Assembly: GCF_015707995.1 (NCBI RefSeq) | Contig: NZ_JAAGRY010000005.1 | Location: forward strand, 1-64,000 | Origin: Microbacterium paulum | Lineage (GTDB): Bacteria; Actinomycetota; Actinomycetes; Actinomycetales; Microbacteriaceae | DNA length: 64,000 bases | Direction: 5' to 3' | Shown here: positions 518-8,338 of the stretch, in pieces | Layout of the letters: every line of letters begins with the position of its first letter | How positions within the stretch are numbered: the first letter of the stretch is position 1 | Notes under the pieces: generated by a model | What the model was told of the DNA's origin: nothing | Databases searched by the model: none | Seen by the model: the letters and a program-made list of their open reading frames with translations, nothing else | Translations under genes and position numbers: made by a program

Positions 518-1521
518 CCGCATTCCCCGTCCGGCGCCTGCGCCGCCTGCGCCAGAACCCGGTGCTCCGCCGCCTCGTCGCCGAGCACGACCTCACGCCG
601 CGGCGGCTCGTGCTGCCCGTGTTCGTCAAGGAGGGCATCGACGCGCCGCAGCCCATCGCGAGCATGCCGGGGGTGTCGCAGCATCCGCTCGACGCCGTTC
701 CCGCGCTCGTCGAGGAGGCGGTCGCGGCGGGCATCGGCGGCCTCATGCTCTTCGGGGTGCCCGAGACCCGCGACGCCGTCGGCAGCGGGGCGACCGACCC
801 CGAAGGCATCCTCAACCGCGCCATCGCGGTCGCCGCCCGGGCTTCGCGGGGGCGCATCACGGTGCAGGCCGACCTGTGCCTCGACGAGTTCACCGACCAC
901 GGTCACTGCGGCGTGCTCGCCGCCGACGGCTCGGTCGACAACGACGCGACCCTCGAGATCTACGCACGGATGGCGCTCGCACAGGCCGAGGCCGGCGCCG
1001 ACATCCTGGGCCTGTCGGGCATGATGGACGGCCAGGTCGCTGCGTGCCGGGCCGCGCTGGATGCCGCGGGGTTCGGCACGACCCGCAGCGACGTCGTCAT
1101 CCTCGCGTACTCGGCGAAGTACGCCTCGGCCTTCTACGGGCCGTTCCGCGAGGCCGTCGAGTCGACGCTCACAGGCGACCGGCGGACGTACCAGCTCGAC
1201 GCGGCGAACGGCCGCGAGGGTGTGCAGGAGGCTCTCGTCGACATCGACGAGGGCGCCGACATCGTCATGGTGAAGCCCGCCGGCCCCTACCTCGACGTCC
1301 TCGCCGAGGTCGCCGCCGTCTCTGCCGTGCCGGTCTGGGCGTACCAGGTGTCGGGGGAGTACGCGATGATCGAGCACGCCGCCGCGGCGGGGGTCATCGA
1401 CCGCGACCGGGCGATCGGCGAATCCCTCCTCGGCATCCGCCGGGCGGGCGCCGAGGCGATCCTCACCTATTGGGCGCTCGAGGTCGCGGGCTGGCTGAAC
1501 GCCGGGCGGAGCCTCGCATGA
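514..1521 (+). CDS. hemB: delta-aminolevulinic acid dehydratase (porphobilinogen synthase)
   Basis: 335 residues, usual family length. It condenses two 5-aminolevulinates to porphobilinogen. The Schiff-base lysines are visible as K202 (AYSAKYAS) and K254 ([10 protein letters not shown]). The metal-site segment reads [14 protein letters not shown]: the first and third cysteines of the zinc-type CxC...C site are kept but the middle one is Asp, a hybrid of the Cys-rich and Asp-rich classes. The ATG at 514 overlaps the hemD stop and the hemL ATG at 1518 overlaps this gene's stop, so the three are translationally coupled. Longer upstream frames are only open hemD antiphase sequence. Confidence 0.97.
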
Positions 1522-2837
1522 GCGCCACCTCGCCTGCCACGAACGACGAGCTGTTCGCCCGCGCCCGCGCCGTGATCCCCGGCGGCGTCGACTCGCCCGT
1601 CCGCGCCTACGGCTCGGTCGGCGGCACGCCGCGGTTCGTGACGAGCGCTTCGGGCGCGTGGATCACGGATGCCGAGGGCCGCCGCTATATCGACCTCGTC
1701 GCCAGCTGGGGGCCCGCCCTTCTCGGCCACGCCCACCCCGAGGTCGTCTCCGCCGTGCAGGAGGCCGCCGCGCGCGGCCTGTCGTTCGGGGCGCCGACCT
1801 CGGCCGAAGCGGAGCTCGTCGAGGAGATCGTCGCGCGGGTGCCGGCTGTCGCGAAGGCGCGCCTGGTCTCGACTGGCACCGAGGCGACGATGACCGCGAT
1901 CCGCCTCGCGCGCGGGGCGACCGGGCGCGATCTGGTGGTGAAGTTCGCCGGTCACTATCACGGGCACTCCGACGGTCTGCTCGCGGCGGCCGGGTCGGGT
2001 CTCGCGACCTTCGCCCTGCCCGGGTCGGCGGGGGTGCCCTCCGCGATCGCCGCGCAGACCCTCGTCGTGCCCTACAACGACCCTGACGCGCTCGCGTCGG
2101 TCTTCGCCGCGCACCCCGGGCGCATCGCCGCGGTGATCACCGAGGCGGCGGCCGCCAACATGGGTGTCGTGGCTCCGGCATCCGGGTTCACCTCGTTCGT
2201 CCGCGACCTCACCGCCCGTGAGGGCGCGCTGCTGATCAGTGACGAGGTGCTCACCGGGTTCCGCGCCGCACCCGGTGGGTATGCACAGGTGCTCGCCGAG
2301 TCGGGCGAACCCGTCGTCCCCGACCTCGTCACCTTCGGCAAGGTCATCGGTGGGGGGCTCCCCGTCGCCGCCGTCGGCGGGCGCGCCGACGTCATGGACC
2401 TCCTCGCGCCCACCGGCCCGGTGTACCAGGCCGGCACCCTGAGCGGAAACCCGGTCGCGGTCGCCGCGGGCCTCGCGACCCTGCGGCTCGCGGACGACGC
2501 CGCCTACGCGCGCCTCGCCGAGGCCTCGGCGACGCTGTCGGCCGCCGTCGGGCGGGCGCTCGACGAGGCATCCGTCCCGCACGTCGTCCAGCGCGCGGGC
2601 ACCCTCTTCAGCGTCTTCTTCGGCTCCGAGGTCGCCAGCGGCGTGCCCGACTACGAGACGGCCTTGCGGCAGAATGCCCCGGCCTACGGCCGCTTCTTCC
2701 ACGCGATGCTCGACCAGGGGGTGTCGCTGCCACCGTCGGCCTTCGAGGCGTGGTTCGTCACCGCGGCGCACGACGACGAGGTGATCGGCCGTATCGTCGA
2801 GGCGCTTCCCGCCGCCGCCCGCGCAGCGGCGGGCTGA
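1518..2837 (+). CDS. hemL: glutamate-1-semialdehyde 2,1-aminomutase
   Basis: 439 residues. It is a PLP enzyme of the class III aminotransferase fold that makes 5-aminolevulinate in the C5 pathway, directly supplying HemB. Seen: [16 protein letters not shown] at the N-terminus, the [15 protein letters not shown] substrate loop, SDEVLTGFR (PLP-binding Asp region) and the Schiff-base lysine K275 in [17 protein letters not shown]. The ATG sits in an ATGA overlap with hemB. The last codons and the stop lie inside a long perfect hairpin (2821-2855) that probably ends the operon. Confidence 0.97.
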
Positions 2838-2855
2838 CACAGCCCGCCGCTGCGC
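2821..2855. terminator. bidirectional hairpin between hemL and the GH81 gene
   Basis: Perfect 15-bp stem (2821-2835 with 2841-2855) and a five-base loop GACAC. The TGA stop of hemL (2835-2837) is at the stem-loop junction. There is no T-tract. It sits between two convergent operons, so it can serve both directions. Confidence 0.65.
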
Positions 2856-2867
2856 TGACGCAGACCC

Positions 2868-4883
2868 TCAGCGCGCCGCGAGGCGGACCGCGGCGAGCCA
2901 CGCGAGCACCGCCGAGCGTGAGTTCCCGTCATCGAGGGCGTCCGGCGCGACCTGCGCCGCCCACGCATCCGCCGCGATGAGCGCGCTCGGCCCGCCGAGC
3001 GCCGAGTACATCGCGACGGCGTCGCCGAGTGGCCCGGTGAATGCGGCCGTGCCACCGGCATCGGCCACGTTCGCCGCGACCCGACTCGGGTCGCCCGCGA
3101 GGTACTGCAGCGAGACCGGTCCGAGAGGCAGCGCTTGGATGCCGAGGATCGCCGACGGCTCCGCGCTGAACCACGTCGCGTAGTCCCGCTTCGCGCTCCA
3201 CGAGATCGACACGATCGTGTGGGCGTACCCGGCGGGAAGATCGGTCGGCTCGAGCCACAGGGCGCGCGCGGCGTCGGCCTCGCTCGAGAGCAGCCACGTG
3301 GCCTCGCCCGTCAGGTCCTGCTGTCCCGAGGCCTCCGCCCACAGCGCGAGGCCGTTCCAGGCCGCCACGGCCTCCGAGCTCGACTCCTGATTGTTCCCGT
3401 CGGCGAACGGGGAGGTGCCCGAGGCCCAGGAGTGCCCGCGATACGGGTCGAACACCCGCAGCGCGGGCAGCTCCGCACTCCCGGCGGCGACATCGGCGGC
3501 GAGGGCATCCATCACAGGACGCATTCCCGCGACTGCGTCGGGGCGCTCACGGCCGAGCACGCCGGCCGCGTAGAGGAAGTAGCCGTAGTGGAAGTGATGG
3601 TCGTTGCCCTCTTCGGACCCGAAGCTCGGGTCTTTTCCGACGACGAGATGCAGCACGTCGTCGTAGACGAAGCAGCGCGCGGCGGCCGTCGTGCAGCCGT
3701 GCGGATCGATCCACGGGGCGAGCTCGGTGGCGAGCCGGTCGGCGGCGGCCGAGGCGAGCGCGTCGTCGCCGAGGGCGCGTGCGATCTCGACGAGGTTCGC
3801 GATGCGGGCGAGTGCCTTGCCGCCGAAGTACGTGTCGGCGGGGGTGGCCGGTGTCGCGTCGAGGTCGGTCTGCGCCTGCGCCAGTATCGCCCCCCGCGTG
3901 GCGTCGTCGATGCCGTCGAAGTCGTAGGTGGATGCCGCGGTGATCCGCGGGACCGTCCACGTGAGGGTCGACCCGGCGCACGCGGGGGAGGCGCCGTAGG
4001 GCGTGTCGTAGGTGCCGAGGTCGCAGTCGCCGCCGGCATGGCGCCCGGCGAACGGGACGACGACCGTGCGGTCGGTGCCGACGTAGGCGAGGTGCGTGGT
4101 GACGTCGGTGTCACCGAGGTCGTAGCTGGTCTCGACGGCGTCGACCGGATCTCCGATCGCCGCCGCCCACGCCGCCGCGTCCGCGCCGCCGGGCAACCCC
4201 GCGACCTGCAGCGTGCCGCCGGCCGGGACGTGCACCGACGAGCCGCTGACCTGCACATCGCCGCGCAGCACGTACGTGATGCCGTCGACCACGGCGGTCC
4301 ATGCCCCCTCCTGCAGGGGCGTCGGTGCCGCGCCGAGTACGACGTCCAGGTCGGCGACGGCGGTGATCGCGACGATCGGCGACCCCTCCGCGAGCGTCAC
4401 GCGCGCGCGCTCGTCCGTGCCGGAGAGGTAGGTGACGGTGACCGATACCGGGTCGGCGCGCACCACTTGCAGGCCGGAGGTGCCGAGACCGAGCGAGAGT
4501 CCACCGGTGAAGCTCGCGCTGATCGTCTTCTCACCGGTCGTGACGGTGGGAACCTGCACCGTCAAGCCGTCGTCGCGGGGCGCGACGGCGAGCGGCGACG
4601 GATAGATCGGCAGCAGCGTGGGCGAGAACACGAGGCTCGAATACCAGCGGTTCGTCGGGGGCGTGACGCCCGCGGCCAGGCGCTGGGGAGTCGTCGCCGA
4701 AAGATGGTCGACCGGAAGGTCGGCGACGGCCGACGATGCGGCAGGCGTCGGGATGCCCCCGGCGAGCCCGTCCCCGGCGGCCGGGCTGTCGCCGGTGCAC
4801 CCCGCTAGCGCGAGCGCCGAGACGACGATCAGGGTGAGCGCGGCGGCGAGAGCCGAGATCCGCCGCGGTGCCGGACGGGTCAT
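2868..4883 (-). CDS. GH81 endo-beta-1,3-glucanase lipoprotein
   Basis: 671 residues. The N-terminus has a basic stretch, a hydrophobic run and a lipobox LALAGC (lipidated Cys29), so it is predicted to be anchored on the outer face of the membrane. The rest matches glycoside hydrolase family 81: PTNRWYSSL near residue 85, NDHHFHYGYFLYAAGVLG in the catalytic (alpha/alpha)6 domain, and DGNNQESSSEA carrying the two family glutamates four apart (E500 and E504). GH81 enzymes cut internal beta-1,3-glucosidic bonds. The ATG at 4883 overlaps the stop of the HlyD-like gene (ATGA), so it is the third gene of an operon headed by a GT2 synthase. An endoglucanase beside a processive synthase recalls BcsZ of cellulose systems. 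Family call is strong; the role in glucan export is inference. Confidence 0.88.
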   Translation of the reverse strand: MTRPAPRRISALAAALTLIVVSALALAGCTGDSPAAGDGLAGGIPTPAASSAVADLPVDHLSATTPQRLAAGVTPPTNRWYSSLVFSPTLLPIYPSPLAVAPRDDGLTVQVPTVTTGEKTISASFTGGLSLGLGTSGLQVVRADPVSVTVTYLSGTDERARVTLAEGSPIVAITAVADLDVVLGAAPTPLQEGAWTAVVDGITYVLRGDVQVSGSSVHVPAGGTLQVAGLPGGADAAAWAAAIGDPVDAVETSYDLGDTDVTTHLAYVGTDRTVVVPFAGRHAGGDCDLGTYDTPYGASPACAGSTLTWTVPRITAASTYDFDGIDDATRGAILAQAQTDLDATPATPADTYFGGKALARIANLVEIARALGDDALASAAADRLATELAPWIDPHGCTTAAARCFVYDDVLHLVVGKDPSFGSEEGNDHHFHYGYFLYAAGVLGRERPDAVAGMRPVMDALAADVAAGSAELPALRVFDPYRGHSWASGTSPFADGNNQESSSEAVAAWNGLALWAEASGQQDLTGEATWLLSSEADAARALWLEPTDLPAGYAHTIVSISWSAKRDYATWFSAEPSAILGIQALPLGPVSLQYLAGDPSRVAANVADAGGTAAFTGPLGDAVAMYSALGGPSALIAADAWAAQVAPDALDDGNSRSAVLAWLAAVRLAAR

Positions 4884-5611
4884 AGGCCCATCCTGCGCAG
4901 GAAGTCGCGGAACGAATCGCTCACGCCCGCCAATGGTCCGTCGTCGCGCAGCGAGAGGGTGGCGACCACGGGGGTGCCGGGTCGATAGAGTCCACTGATC
5001 TTCTGATCGGCCAGCGCGGGCGCGGAGATGGTGATGGTGGATGCCGCCCGCCCGTCGACCGTCTCCACCTCGATCGCGTCGACGGTGCCTTCGACGGTCG
5101 TGTCGTTGGGCAGCTGCAGATCGACCGCGGTCCCCTGGGCGATGCGGCCGTAGTCGCGTGCGGTGAGGGTGAACTTCGCGCTCACGCCGAGGCTGCCCGT
5201 GCGGTCGATGGTGGCGACCTCTGCACCTGCGGTGACGAAGTCCCCGACCGGAGCGGCGATCGACGCGACCGTCCCGTCGACGGCTGAACGCACCTCGTAG
5301 GTGCCCGCGGCCGTGTCGACGCCGTCGAGATCGGTGGCGCGGATGACTCCGGCCTCCATGTCTCGAACCATCTGGGGGCTGTGCACGGTGAACAGGCGCT
5401 CGCCGGTCGTGACGTCGTCGCCGACCGTGACGGCCTGGTCGACGACGGTGCCGGCGTACACCGCACCCGCCGAGAACTCCTGGGCCGTGATCGTCGCGCT
5501 CTCGCTGCGCGCCGAGTTCTGCCGCTGCGTGAAGACGACCGTGCATGCGCCCACGATCGCGAGGACGACGACGAGGCCGACGGCGAGTTTGATCCGGGCC
5601 GCCCACGTCAT
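4880..5611 (-). CDS. HlyD-like membrane-fusion/biotinyl-lipoyl-like protein
   Basis: 243 residues. One hydrophobic segment at about residues 8-27 (after RIK) is either a membrane anchor or, less likely, a lipoprotein signal ending at VGAC (Cys23). The remainder resembles a periplasmic adaptor: two half lipoyl-like hairpins (AGTVVDQAVTVGDDVTTGE and VRSAVDGTVASIAAPVGDFV), separated by a short region instead of a long coiled coil, then a beta-barrel-like domain. Both ends overlap neighbours by ATGA: start with the GT2 stop and stop with the GH81 start. In this position it may guide nascent polysaccharide away from the synthase, as HlyD-type partners such as Alg44 do in other GT2 systems. That role is inference. 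Confidence 0.7.
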   Translation of the reverse strand: MTWAARIKLAVGLVVVLAIVGACTVVFTQRQNSARSESATITAQEFSAGAVYAGTVVDQAVTVGDDVTTGERLFTVHSPQMVRDMEAGVIRATDLDGVDTAAGTYEVRSAVDGTVASIAAPVGDFVTAGAEVATIDRTGSLGVSAKFTLTARDYGRIAQGTAVDLQLPNDTTVEGTVDAIEVETVDGRAASTITISAPALADQKISGLYRPGTPVVATLSLRDDGPLAGVSDSFRDFLRRMGL

Positions 5612-7269
5612 CGCGCCGTCTCCAGCTCGCGCGGCGCGGGGCGTGACACGACGGTCCGCAGCGGCGTCTCGACGGGCTCGGGCATGATCGCCGGGGCCGG
5701 CGAACGCTTCGACTCCCGGGCTGCGGCGCCGATGAACAGGGCCAGGATCACGGTGTTCGTGACGTTCCACGCGGTCGCGATGGTGGGGGTGCCGTTCTGC
5801 CAGTCTCGCCAGACCGCGACGACCGAGGTCAGCAGCAGGAAGACGAAGAAGAGCAGTTGGGGAATGATGAACTGGAACGGCGAGCTCGGCTTGCCGCGGG
5901 CCCCCGTCGCCTGCCAGCCGACGTCCTTTCCGACGATCACGTTCCACAGTGCCTTGGCGTAGATCGGGAACGAGGCTGTGGCGAGCGTCAGAGTCTCCCA
6001 CCGGAACGACCCCATCACGAACCAGGCCAGCACGATCTGCATCCCGTAGAAGCCGAAGTAGTAGAGCGCCCACGTGCCGGCGGTGATGCTCAGGTTCATC
6101 GGGCGCAGGTCGAAATAGATCTCGAGCGGCGGCACGAGCAGCAGCAGAAGCGGGCAGATCCCGGTGAGGTAGAACGACGCGGTCACGAAGTACTGGATGC
6201 GCTGATCGGCGGTCAGGGTGCGCCGCGGACTCAGCGGGTTGTGCGTCAGCAGGATCTCGAACCCGCCGGTCGCCCACCGCAGCTGCTGCTTGCTGTACGC
6301 CTCGACCGTCTCCGGCGCGTCACCGATGGCGAGGACGTCGGAGATGTACACCGATCGCCATCCCTGCTCGTGCAGCGCCAGCGCCGTCCAGACATCCTCG
6401 GATTTCGAGTCGGTGTGCATGCCTCCGACCTCATCGATCGCGGCCCGGCGGAAGATCACGTTGGTGCCGACGCAGAAGGCCGCGTTCGACCTGTTGCGTC
6501 CGCGTTGGACGAACCGGTAGAACACCGTCTGCATGTAGGCGGCTCCCCGCGCGACGATGGTGTCGAGGTTGCCGTAGGTCTGCGGCGTCTGGACGAACGC
6601 GACGTTCGCGTCGGCGAAGAACGGCATCGTCTCGACGAGGAAGTCCGGGTGGGGCACGAAGTCGGCGTCGAAGATCGCGAAGTACTGTCCCTTGGCGATC
6701 GAGAGCCCGTGGTTGACGTTCCCTGCTTTGGCGCCGTTGCTGCTGAGGCGGCGGACGTACCACGCGCCCAGTTCCTCGCACGCCTCGCGGACGGCCTCTG
6801 ACCTGCCGTCGTCGAGCACCCAGGTCCGATGGGCGCCCCGCACGGCGATCGCCGCGGCGATCGTGCGCCGGACGGCGTCGATGTCCTCCCCGTAGACGGT
6901 GATGAAGATGTCGATCAGCACGGGCTCGCCGTCGATGAACATCGTGTCGGCATCGTCGCGGCGCCGTGAGAACAGTGATCGCTTGGCCTCGTGATAGGCG
7001 AAGTCGCGCGGCTCGTAGCCGGCGGAGAGGATCGTCCACATCGACAGCAGGGCGTGGAAGATCAACACCGACTCGGCCACGATGACCAGGGCGTACGGCA
7101 GCAGATCCCCCTGGTTCGCGGGATTGAGCAGGAAGAGCATATAGGCGAGGACACCCAGGGTCGCCACGATCGAGATGAGTACGAACAGCGCCGAATTGTC
7201 GGCTCTGCGTGCACCCCCGCGCCGCGCGTTCTGCGTCGTCGAATTGCTTTTTCGTACGTTTGTCGCCAT
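5608..7269 (-). CDS. processive GT2 membrane glycosyltransferase (cellulose/beta-glucan synthase-like)
   Basis: 553 residues from the ATG at 7269; the preceding G-run can act as ribosome site. Two transmembrane segments (about 27-75) precede a cytosolic GT-A domain, with about five more after it. Catalytic motifs of processive synthases are all present: D153-D154 (UDP binding), D201-A-D203 (metal DxD), a TED-like SED with D292 as base, and Q328QLRW332 (acceptor/exit). No PilZ domain follows, so direct c-di-GMP control as in BcsA is unlikely. The first gene of an ATGA-coupled operon with a HlyD-like protein and a GH81 beta-1,3-glucanase, which suggests a beta-1,3- or mixed-linked glucan product. 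Cellulose or another beta-glycan remains possible. Confidence 0.85.
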   Translation of the reverse strand: MATNVRKSNSTTQNARRGGARRADNSALFVLISIVATLGVLAYMLFLLNPANQGDLLPYALVIVAESVLIFHALLSMWTILSAGYEPRDFAYHEAKRSLFSRRRDDADTMFIDGEPVLIDIFITVYGEDIDAVRRTIAAAIAVRGAHRTWVLDDGRSEAVREACEELGAWYVRRLSSNGAKAGNVNHGLSIAKGQYFAIFDADFVPHPDFLVETMPFFADANVAFVQTPQTYGNLDTIVARGAAYMQTVFYRFVQRGRNRSNAAFCVGTNVIFRRAAIDEVGGMHTDSKSEDVWTALALHEQGWRSVYISDVLAIGDAPETVEAYSKQQLRWATGGFEILLTHNPLSPRRTLTADQRIQYFVTASFYLTGICPLLLLLVPPLEIYFDLRPMNLSITAGTWALYYFGFYGMQIVLAWFVMGSFRWETLTLATASFPIYAKALWNVIVGKDVGWQATGARGKPSSPFQFIIPQLLFFVFLLLTSVVAVWRDWQNGTPTIATAWNVTNTVILALFIGAAARESKRSPAPAIMPEPVETPLRTVVSRPAPRELETAR

Positions 7270-7328
7270 GTCGGCCCCCCAGCCGTCCCCCCACGTCGGC
7301 GCCGGCGGTGGCGCTGCTAACGGGTCCA

Positions 7329-7380
7329 GCATGCGGCGCGCACGTTCCCTCATCGTTTTCACCGCGTGAACACCGCGTGA
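7329..7380 (-). promoter_or_regulatory. candidate promoter and tandem activator site of the GT2 operon
   Basis: CACCGCGTGA occurs twice in direct repeat at 7360-7369 and 7371-7380, eleven bases apart, i.e. one helical turn. On the minus strand a possible -10 (CATGCT, 7334-7329) lies downstream of a GAAAAC-like -35 (about 7357-7352). The repeat then falls just upstream of -35, where a class I activator such as an OmpR-type regulator would bind. The repeat is seen; the promoter reading is inference. Confidence 0.45.
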
Positions 7381-7489
7381 CGATCTCCTGGACGATGACC
7401 GAGCGTGGGCGACGCGGAGGGCTCGGCCCGGGCAGCGCTGCAGCCGCCCGGATCGGGGCGCGGGCGCAGCCCCCCGGTAGGCTCGACGC

Positions 7490-8338
7490 ATGCCCGTGAC
7501 CCTCCTCGGAGCCGCCGAGATCCGCGCGCTCGCCGCCGACCTCGACGTGACCCCGACGAAGAAGCTGGGGCAGAACTTCGTCGTTGACGCCAACACGGTG
7601 CGCAAGATCGTGCACGTGGGCGAGGTCGCGGCATCCGACCGCGTCGTCGAAGTCGGTCCGGGTCTCGGCTCGCTCACGCTCGCGGTGCTCGAGACCGGTG
7701 CGACCGTGACGGCTGTCGAGATCGATCACCGGCTGGCCGCGCGGCTATCCGAGACGGCCGCCGCGCACGGCGTGCCGGCGGGTGCGCTGACGGTGGTGGA
7801 TGCCGATGCGCTGCGCGTCACCGAGTTGCCGGGCGATCCCACGATGCTCATCGCGAACCTGCCCTACAACGTCAGCGTGCCGGTGCTGCTGCATTTCATG
7901 GAGACCTTCCCCGCCATCGAGCGCGGCGTCGTCATGGTGCAGGCCGAGGTGGGGGAGCGGCTCGCCGCCCCGCCCGGGTCGAAGGTCTACGGCGCGCCGA
8001 GCGTGAAGGCGGCCTGGTACGGGCAGTGGCGGCTGGCCGGCACGGTGTCGCGGCAGGTCTTCTGGCCGGTGCCGAACGTCGACAGCGTGCTCGTCGCGTT
8101 CCGTCGCGACCCCGAGCCGCGCGGCGACGAGACACTGCGGCGGGCGACGTTCCGGATCGTGGACGCCGCGTTCCAGCAGCGTCGCAAGATGCTGCGCCAG
8201 GCGCTCGCCGGCGTGCTGGGCGGCTCCTCGGCATCCGCCAGCGACACCCTCACCCGCGCCGGCGTCGACCCGACCCTCCGCGGCGAGCAGTTGACGATCG
8301 ACGACTTCGTCGCGATCGCCCGTGTCGCCGGCGTCTGA
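7490..8338 (+). CDS. rsmA: 16S rRNA dimethyladenosine transferase
   Basis: 282 residues. RsmA (KsgA) dimethylates the two adjacent adenines of helix 45 in 16S rRNA during 30S maturation. Seen: KKLGQNFVVD near the N-terminus, the SAM motif VVEVGPGLGSLTLAV, the acidic VEIDHRLAARL segment, and the catalytic NLPYNVSVPVL (NxPY). The ATG is fixed by a -10 box TAGGCT at 7478-7483 ending six bases before it, so the transcript is probably leaderless. It is usually next to ispE; here an aldo/keto reductase gene intervenes. Confidence 0.96.
   Translation: MPVTLLGAAEIRALAADLDVTPTKKLGQNFVVDANTVRKIVHVGEVAASDRVVEVGPGLGSLTLAVLETGATVTAVEIDHRLAARLSETAAAHGVPAGALTVVDADALRVTELPGDPTMLIANLPYNVSVPVLLHFMETFPAIERGVVMVQAEVGERLAAPPGSKVYGAPSVKAAWYGQWRLAGTVSRQVFWPVPNVDSVLVAFRRDPEPRGDETLRRATFRIVDAAFQQRRKMLRQALAGVLGGSSASASDTLTRAGVDPTLRGEQLTIDDFVAIARVAGV

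Follow-up and report, generated by a model that had tools for sequence, protein, structure and literature searches.

A 64,000-nucleotide stretch of Microbacterium paulum DNA (positions 1 to 64,000 of contig NZ_JAAGRY010000005.1; hereafter the window) carries a three-gene operon for a GT2 membrane glycan synthase, a short HlyD-type adaptor and a protein of the endo-beta-1,3-glucanase family GH81. We conclude that this operon is a real, conserved and dedicated unit, and that it probably synthesizes a curdlan-like, beta-1,3-linked glucan, which it also exports and trims. A beta-1,3-glucan is the best reading of the product because the GH81s of the operon form a separate subfamily and because the unit is present in genomes assigned to curdlan-producing Cellulomonas.

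The three genes lie on the minus strand and overlap by ATGA at both junctions (Table 1), exactly as the first-pass annotation had read them. In 145 pairs from relatives, the 4-nucleotide overlap between GT2 and HlyD was found in 129 and that between HlyD and GH81 in 93, ten being unscorable at the latter junction; these pairs are interdependent, and some genomes were entered twice (for example, L057 and L082 are identical). Since eight named families show the same gene order and, for the most part, the same overlaps, a chance origin of the overlaps was rejected, even though the 145 pairs are not independent. The stop-start overlap of GH81 with the synthase genes suggests coupled translation.

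Conserved synteny of GT2, HlyD and GH81 had been predicted, and it was widely found. Among 299 genomes of the same family, GT2 was detected at an expectation value (E) of 1e-60 or lower in 37, the window's own included, which represent 22 of 85 genera. The adaptor was directly behind GT2 in all 30 loci read, of 39 matches. The start of GH81 was visible in 28 of the 30; the stretches of the other two (L014 and L016) end too early, and their GH81 was recovered by a separate GH81 search. When GH81 was searched for independently in 298 genomes, a same-strand GH81 was located 1.7-2.5 kb downstream of GT2 in 38 of the 39 loci, own included. The 39th locus (L010) belongs to genome G298, which is outside the listing of that search, yet it shows the start of GH81. 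Counted by genome, GH81 was listed in 36 of the 37 that possess GT2, and the gene start was seen at the locus of the 37th. The co-occurrence of GT2 and GH81 gave a Fisher p of 5e-37 with G298 left out, a value not to be taken literally because the genomes share ancestry. GH81 without this GT2 was found in eleven genomes of the family sample.

At the order level, 61 of 396 genomes, distributed over six family codes, matched GT2 at E <= 1e-50. For 53 of these, E was below 1e-170. The adaptor was present in 27 and GH81 in 25 of the 28 new loci; L046 ends at a contig end, and L042 and L048 continue into a second GT2 copy. We also ordered 423 relatives by their nearness to a Cellulomonas sequence and analyzed the best 80 (the named loci). 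By profile search, the adaptor was detected in all 80 and GH81 in 78. In the remaining two, L094 and L124, the contigs stop about 560 and 40 bases past the adaptor. The named loci belong to eight families: Cellulomonadaceae, Microbacteriaceae, Promicromonosporaceae, Sanguibacteraceae, Beutenbergiaceae, Nocardioidaceae, Propionibacteriaceae and Demequinaceae; one contig labelled Acidobacteria is probably a binning error. Among the neighbours of these loci, the operon genes alone recur across most genera. A fourth conserved operon gene was considered and rejected, the next neighbour families reaching just 6 of 26 genus labels, in a count based on gene calls, which recovered the adaptor in 36 loci, against 80 by profile.

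Variants of the arrangement were seen as well. Several genomes of family code f10 have two GT2 copies a few kb apart, and in L169 (G1113) the GT2-HlyD pair is doubled, with one GH81 behind. In the wider phylum, 21 GT2 loci were matched in 20 further genomes (E 2e-52 to 2e-78); neither HlyD nor GH81 was matched in their flanks, which were at most about 1.5 kb long. No adaptor was among the called genes of ten wider regions (eight around such GT2s and two around operon-less GH81s), where in L228 even the GT2 went uncalled. In one of these regions, L231 (G220, 823-5903), an operon-type GH81 (779 bits) is upstream of a non-orthologous GT2 (293 bits), with a 266-amino acid protein without a Pfam match between them. 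In the actinobacterial genome G829 (L229, 843-4411), a distant GT2 of the broader group overlaps a GH26-domain gene (56 bits) by 1 nucleotide, which is another synthase-hydrolase pair.

The third gene product matched Glyco_hydro81C (PF17652) in Pfam with 168.3 bits, and the nearest solved GH81 structure was 6fop (E 4.9e-50). D428 was kept in 135 of 135 aligned GH81s, and E500 and E504 in 134, free copies included; we take these three to be the catalytic residues. GH81 enzymes act on consecutive beta-1,3 bonds. In a tree of 41 of the 135 sequences, a branch with 100/100 support split 22 operon copies and three operon-type orphans from 16 others; long branches meet at this split, and the window GH81 is among those flagged. 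Judged from their sequences, the operon GH81s are a subfamily of their own in which the catalytic residues are kept.

The protein had been annotated as a lipoprotein. This stands for the window copy, which has a lipobox, but the lipobox is not universal: it was found in 45 of 81 operon GH81s with a scorable start (3 of the 84 loci lack one). An N-terminal hydrophobic segment is present in 80 of these 81. The copies without a lipobox come from Cellulomonas or its family in 34 of 36 cases, and most Cellulomonadaceae copies have a hydrophobic segment without the cysteine. The N-terminus of the C. flavigena operon GH81 resembles, by eye, a membrane anchor. No carbohydrate-binding module (CBM) was detected by Pfam in either of the two operon GH81s scanned, whereas the free GH81s that were read are long and both scanned ones bear F5/8-type domains. 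In six of the 80 named loci, all from Cellulomonas (L088, L089, L092, L093, L096 and L117), a second GH81 is directly behind the operon; the copy scanned, from L093, has FN3 and CBM6 domains.

Curdlan production by Cellulomonas has long been reported, in a 1990 patent and later papers cited in PMC3544764. According to that source, C. flavigena makes abundant curdlan and C. fimi and others a little, and in every cellulomonad sequenced there are two GT2s that are 35-39% identical to CrdS of Agrobacterium; GH81 is mentioned in the available text without being tied to synthesis. Curdlan-type biofilms have been described for C. flavigena, C. uda and C. fimi (PMC8832061). We found one GT2 match each in the genomes assigned to C. 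flavigena, C. fimi and C. gilvus, with the adaptor and GH81 behind it, and C. uda carries the operon (L087). When the CrdS-like protein of locus L205, the proxy described below, was used as the query, the operon GT2 was the best match in all three assigned genomes, at 35-36% identity, with a weaker split match elsewhere. From its position at 3.50 Mb, the C. flavigena operon GT2 would be Cfla_3154. In the genus, 53 of 81 genomes matched GT2 at E <= 1e-40. One strong-match Cellulomonas genome (G1096:C1:360130-361679) has a GT2 split over two frames, with the adaptor and GH81 still matched behind it.

The GT2 protein, a single-copy gene product in the window's own genome by genome search, matched the GT2 and cellulose-synthase models of Pfam. 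The first-pass annotation had described it as having the motifs of processive synthases and no PilZ domain. Indeed, D153-D154, D201-x-D203, E291-D292 and Q328-Q329-x-R331-W332, as well as W452, T455 and G456 at the gating loop, were invariant across 28 aligned GT2 rows, and we presume these residues to be the processive-synthase motifs; no PilZ match was obtained for the window GT2 in the Pfam scan. The nearest solved structure by sequence was the bacterial cellulose synthase 5ej1 (E 1.1e-47). The predicted model, with a mean predicted local distance difference test score (pLDDT) of 76.7, aligned with BcsA (9fmz) over 457 residues, which is most of its length (Z score 30.8, root-mean-square deviation (rmsd) 2.6), and with the barley mixed-linkage synthase CslF6 at a Z score of 20.2. 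The linkage of the product cannot be read from this predicted fold. At the C-terminus no extra Pfam domain was matched, and residues 524-553 are mostly of low confidence in the model.

The second protein had been read as a membrane-fusion adaptor, and both Pfam (HlyD_3, 48.5 bits) and the predicted model (mean pLDDT 86.9) agree with this. The barrel-sandwich and beta-barrel domains of the HlyD/membrane-fusion family are both present, preceded by an N-terminal helix (residues 3-31). Among the structural matches of the model were ZneB (Z score 13.6, rmsd 3.2, 186 residues aligned), MacA and EmrA. A TolC-docking alpha-hairpin is absent from the model, in which the only notable helix between the half-motifs comprises 8 residues (79-86). 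Across 30 aligned adaptor rows, the linker between the half-motifs is short; the exceptions are L060 and a few others, which have insertions there.

We then compared the operon with known systems. A locus on an A. tumefaciens plasmid (L205; genes of 484, 655 and 426 amino acids) was used as a proxy for CrdS and crdASC on the basis of gene order and length, its first gene having 1455 base pairs (bp) versus 1458 bp for CrdA (PMC10819609). In a tree of 51 hand-picked GT2 rows, the 21 operon GT2s formed a deep clade of their own with 100/100 support. The CrdS-like proxy, a long branch included in the long-branch warning of this tree, clustered with BgsA and its relatives and with BcsA/CelA (98/92). 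One group of the operon GT2s and the CrdS-like proxy was rejected (approximately unbiased test, p-AU 2.25e-05), and so was one group with seven HlyD-paired alphaproteobacterial GT2s (p-AU 2.0e-5). Thus, the GT2 phylogeny failed as a guide to the product, the operon family being a separate clade. If curdlan is made, the GT2 is not an orthologue of CrdS, insofar as L205 represents CrdS. The earlier proposal that the operon makes, exports and trims a beta-1,3-glucan is partly sustained: the synteny, the GH81 subfamily and the curdlan-producer genomes argue for it, whereas the synthase would belong to neither the BcsA nor the CrdS-like proxy group. The analogy with cellulose systems fits the mode of working, but the synthase is outside the BcsA group.

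In its pairing with an HlyD-type protein, the operon works like BgsBA and CrdA-type systems without being one of them. The crdASC proxy also consists of three genes including a GT2 (34-36% core identity) and an HlyD-type protein; its CrdA-like protein (L205, 3138-4592) matched HlyD_3 with 24.3 bits against a cut-off of 22.2, and the available text of PMC10819609 describes CrdA as a protein of unknown function. It differs from the operon in gene order, in the size of the adaptor (484 versus 243 amino acids), in a third gene without a Pfam match in place of GH81, in its Gram-negative host and in the clade of its GT2. In the bgsBA system of Sinorhizobium/Rhizobium mixed-linkage glucan, an HlyD-type gene adjoins a PilZ-less GT2. 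There, however, the HlyD protein is larger (421 amino acids in L031), the GT2 is in a different clade, and no glucanase-annotated gene is beside the pair in L031 and L208. BgsA itself has a C-terminal domain that binds cyclic di-GMP. The bcsAB(Z)C systems share the BcsA-like fold and the combination of a synthase, an outer-face partner and a polymer-matched hydrolase; the operon lacks PilZ, has an HlyD-type protein instead of BcsB and GH81 instead of GH8, and has no outer-membrane channel gene. RiGT2 of Romboutsia ilealis, likened here by description alone, is also a Gram-positive glucan synthase of the cellulose-synthase type; its host is one of the Clostridia, and it is reported in the available text to have no clustered bcsB gene (PMC10374906). 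On a plasmid of Palleronia sp. LCG004 (L204, 3607-8978), an HlyD-type gene overlaps a GT2 and a beta-glucanase-family gene is two genes on; unlike in the operon, the hydrolase is a GH8 behind an opposite-strand cache-domain gene, the host is an alphaproteobacterium and the GT2 is in a different clade. This locus is a possible Gram-negative parallel to the GT2-HlyD-hydrolase plan.

We propose the following mechanism, in which we infer the sugar donor, the linkage, the formation of a complex and the trimming role. The GT2 would polymerise UDP-glucose, and the chain would leave through the membrane channel of the same protein. The adaptor, a single-pass protein without a TolC-docking hairpin, would cap this channel at the outer face, at the position of BcsB in cellulose synthase. 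BgsA and, by the proxy L205, CrdS likewise pair with HlyD-type proteins and not with BcsB, which supports the proposal. The membrane-tethered GH81 would cleave beta-1,3 bonds in the emerging chain and thereby might set its length, release jams or edit stray folds. This role is modelled on that supposed for BcsZ/CMCax in cellulose synthesis; endoglucanases of cellulose synthase operons matter for synthesis, although their exact role is given as unknown (PMC5407803).

Instead of trimming during synthesis, GH81 could reclaim stored glucan at carbon exhaustion. Curdlan was proposed as a storage polymer of C. flavigena and its route of reuse called unclear (PMC3544764), and the second GH81 next to six of the named loci, with FN3 and CBM6 in the scanned copy, would suit such a use. 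We nevertheless consider this unlikely, since the stop-start overlap points to a translation of GH81 coupled to that of the synthase genes, the operon GH81s bear tethering signals, the two scanned copies lack a CBM, and C. fimi and C. gilvus were reported not to grow on added curdlan (PMC3544764). A mixed-linkage (1,3;1,4)-beta-glucan, as made by BgsBA of Sinorhizobium, of which GH81 would trim the 1,3 runs alone, seems decidedly unlikely. The bgsBA genes likewise encode an HlyD protein and a PilZ-less GT2, and a Gram-positive enzyme, RiGT2, makes such a glucan (PMC10374906). However, the operon GT2 falls outside the BgsA clade, and its grouping with the HlyD-paired alphaproteobacterial GT2s was rejected (p-AU 2e-5). 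The preference of GH81 for consecutive beta-1,3 bonds also speaks against a mixed linkage, and C. flavigena is reported as a maker of curdlan (PMC3544764). Least probable, in our estimate, is that the synthase makes cellulose or another beta-glycan and that GH81 degrades beta-1,3-glucan of foreign origin, for example fungal wall or callose. Cellulose synthases are indeed the nearest solved structures to the GT2, and the eleven family-sample genomes with GH81 but without this GT2 imply other uses of GH81 there. Against a foreign substrate, the 100/100 branch parts the operon GH81s from 16 others, the operon copies bear tethering signals, and GH81 accompanies GT2 in 36 of 37 genomes by listing and in the 37th by its gene start.

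Several observations weigh against a curdlan-like product of the operon. As the tree places the GT2 outside the clade of the CrdS-like proxy, the product would not be transferable by orthology. C. flavigena holds a second, weaker CrdS-like GT2 by sequence similarity (at about 2.926 Mb); its neighbours, SpoIIE, ATPase and ABC genes and not an adaptor or glucanase, speak in favour of the operon GT2, however. A strong GT2 match was found in just 51 of the 81 Cellulomonas genomes. C. gelida carries the operon (L086) and was reported to make no curdlan exopolysaccharide (PMC3035266, citing Kenyon 2005); thus, either the presence of the operon is insufficient under the conditions used or the product differs. 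The reported failure of C. fimi and C. gilvus to grow on added curdlan counts here too, as both carry the operon. Finally, the operon GH81 of Naasia aerilata (L151, 11586-14541) is broken into three pieces that lie in different frames. In the region of the second C. flavigena GT2 (L243, 5677-10397), this protein gave a PF03552 match of 74 bits and is beside a HATPase and a MASE1-PAS-SpoIIE protein.

Table 1. Coordinates of the operon and associated features in the window
Feature	Position	Strand	Length or basis
GT2 membrane glycan synthase, BcsA-like predicted fold, without PilZ	5608..7269	minus	553 amino acids
Short HlyD-type membrane-fusion adaptor: N-terminal helix, barrel-sandwich and beta-barrel domains, without long hairpin	4880..5611	minus	243 amino acids
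GH81 (endo-beta-1,3-glucanase family) lipoprotein, lipobox LAGC, active-site D428, E500 and E504	2868..4883	minus	671 amino acids
ATGA overlap, GT2 stop and HlyD start	5608..5611	minus	window sequence; recurs in relatives
ATGA overlap, HlyD stop and GH81 start	4880..4883	minus	window sequence; recurs in relatives
Intergenic stretch between operon and divergent ksgA; likely site of operon promoter	7270..7489	minus	

The operon is flanked by hemL (plus strand, ending at 2837) and ksgA (plus strand, 7490-8338), as named from their translations. In Microbacterium its distribution is patchy (4 of 18 same-genus rows, own genome included). We read 30 hemL loci in the genus. Three of them (the window, L246 and L247) have GH81 behind hemL. 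In five congeners (L248-L252), the operon was not matched, and ksgA follows the hemL match at a distance of 98 to 804 bases; the remaining 22 loci have neither GH81 nor ksgA within the flank. ksgA adjoins the operon in the congeners L033-L035 too. Because hemL and ksgA stand close together and operon-free in five congeners, the cassette comprises three genes, and it would have been gained or lost whole at the hemL-ksgA spot. The window hemL (1560-2837) has 76-91% identity to those of seven congeners and 64-70% to the remaining matches in the genus sample; in 22 read loci of the latter identity range, ksgA was absent from the flank.

The first-pass annotation knew of no described actinobacterial operon of this composition, and we found no description of a GT2-HlyD-GH81 operon in the openly searchable literature (titles and starts of abstracts), where subscription papers are mostly outside reach and an earlier description is possible. 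As far as could be searched, the operon is new in composition and clade, and its kind is already known. More tentatively, with slightly less than even confidence, we suggest that it is the actinobacterial curdlan machinery: a second bacterial lineage of beta-1,3-glucan synthases that evolved separately and spread as a cassette of three genes. In it, an adaptor without a hairpin and a membrane-tethered GH81 editor would take the place of the components with which Gram-negative systems export across the outer membrane. If this is true, the curdlan synthase and the curdlanase still missing for C. flavigena would both be found in this operon.

The curdlan genes of Cellulomonas have so far been guessed from weak similarity to CrdS, and the operon provides a candidate synthase, a candidate adaptor and a candidate hydrolase in a non-pathogenic laboratory species. 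The same polymer is also predicted for the other genera in which the operon occurs. As a minimal three-gene case, the operon bears on how a Gram-positive bacterium would export an insoluble glucan without an outer membrane, and on why synthase operons retain an enzyme that cuts their product.

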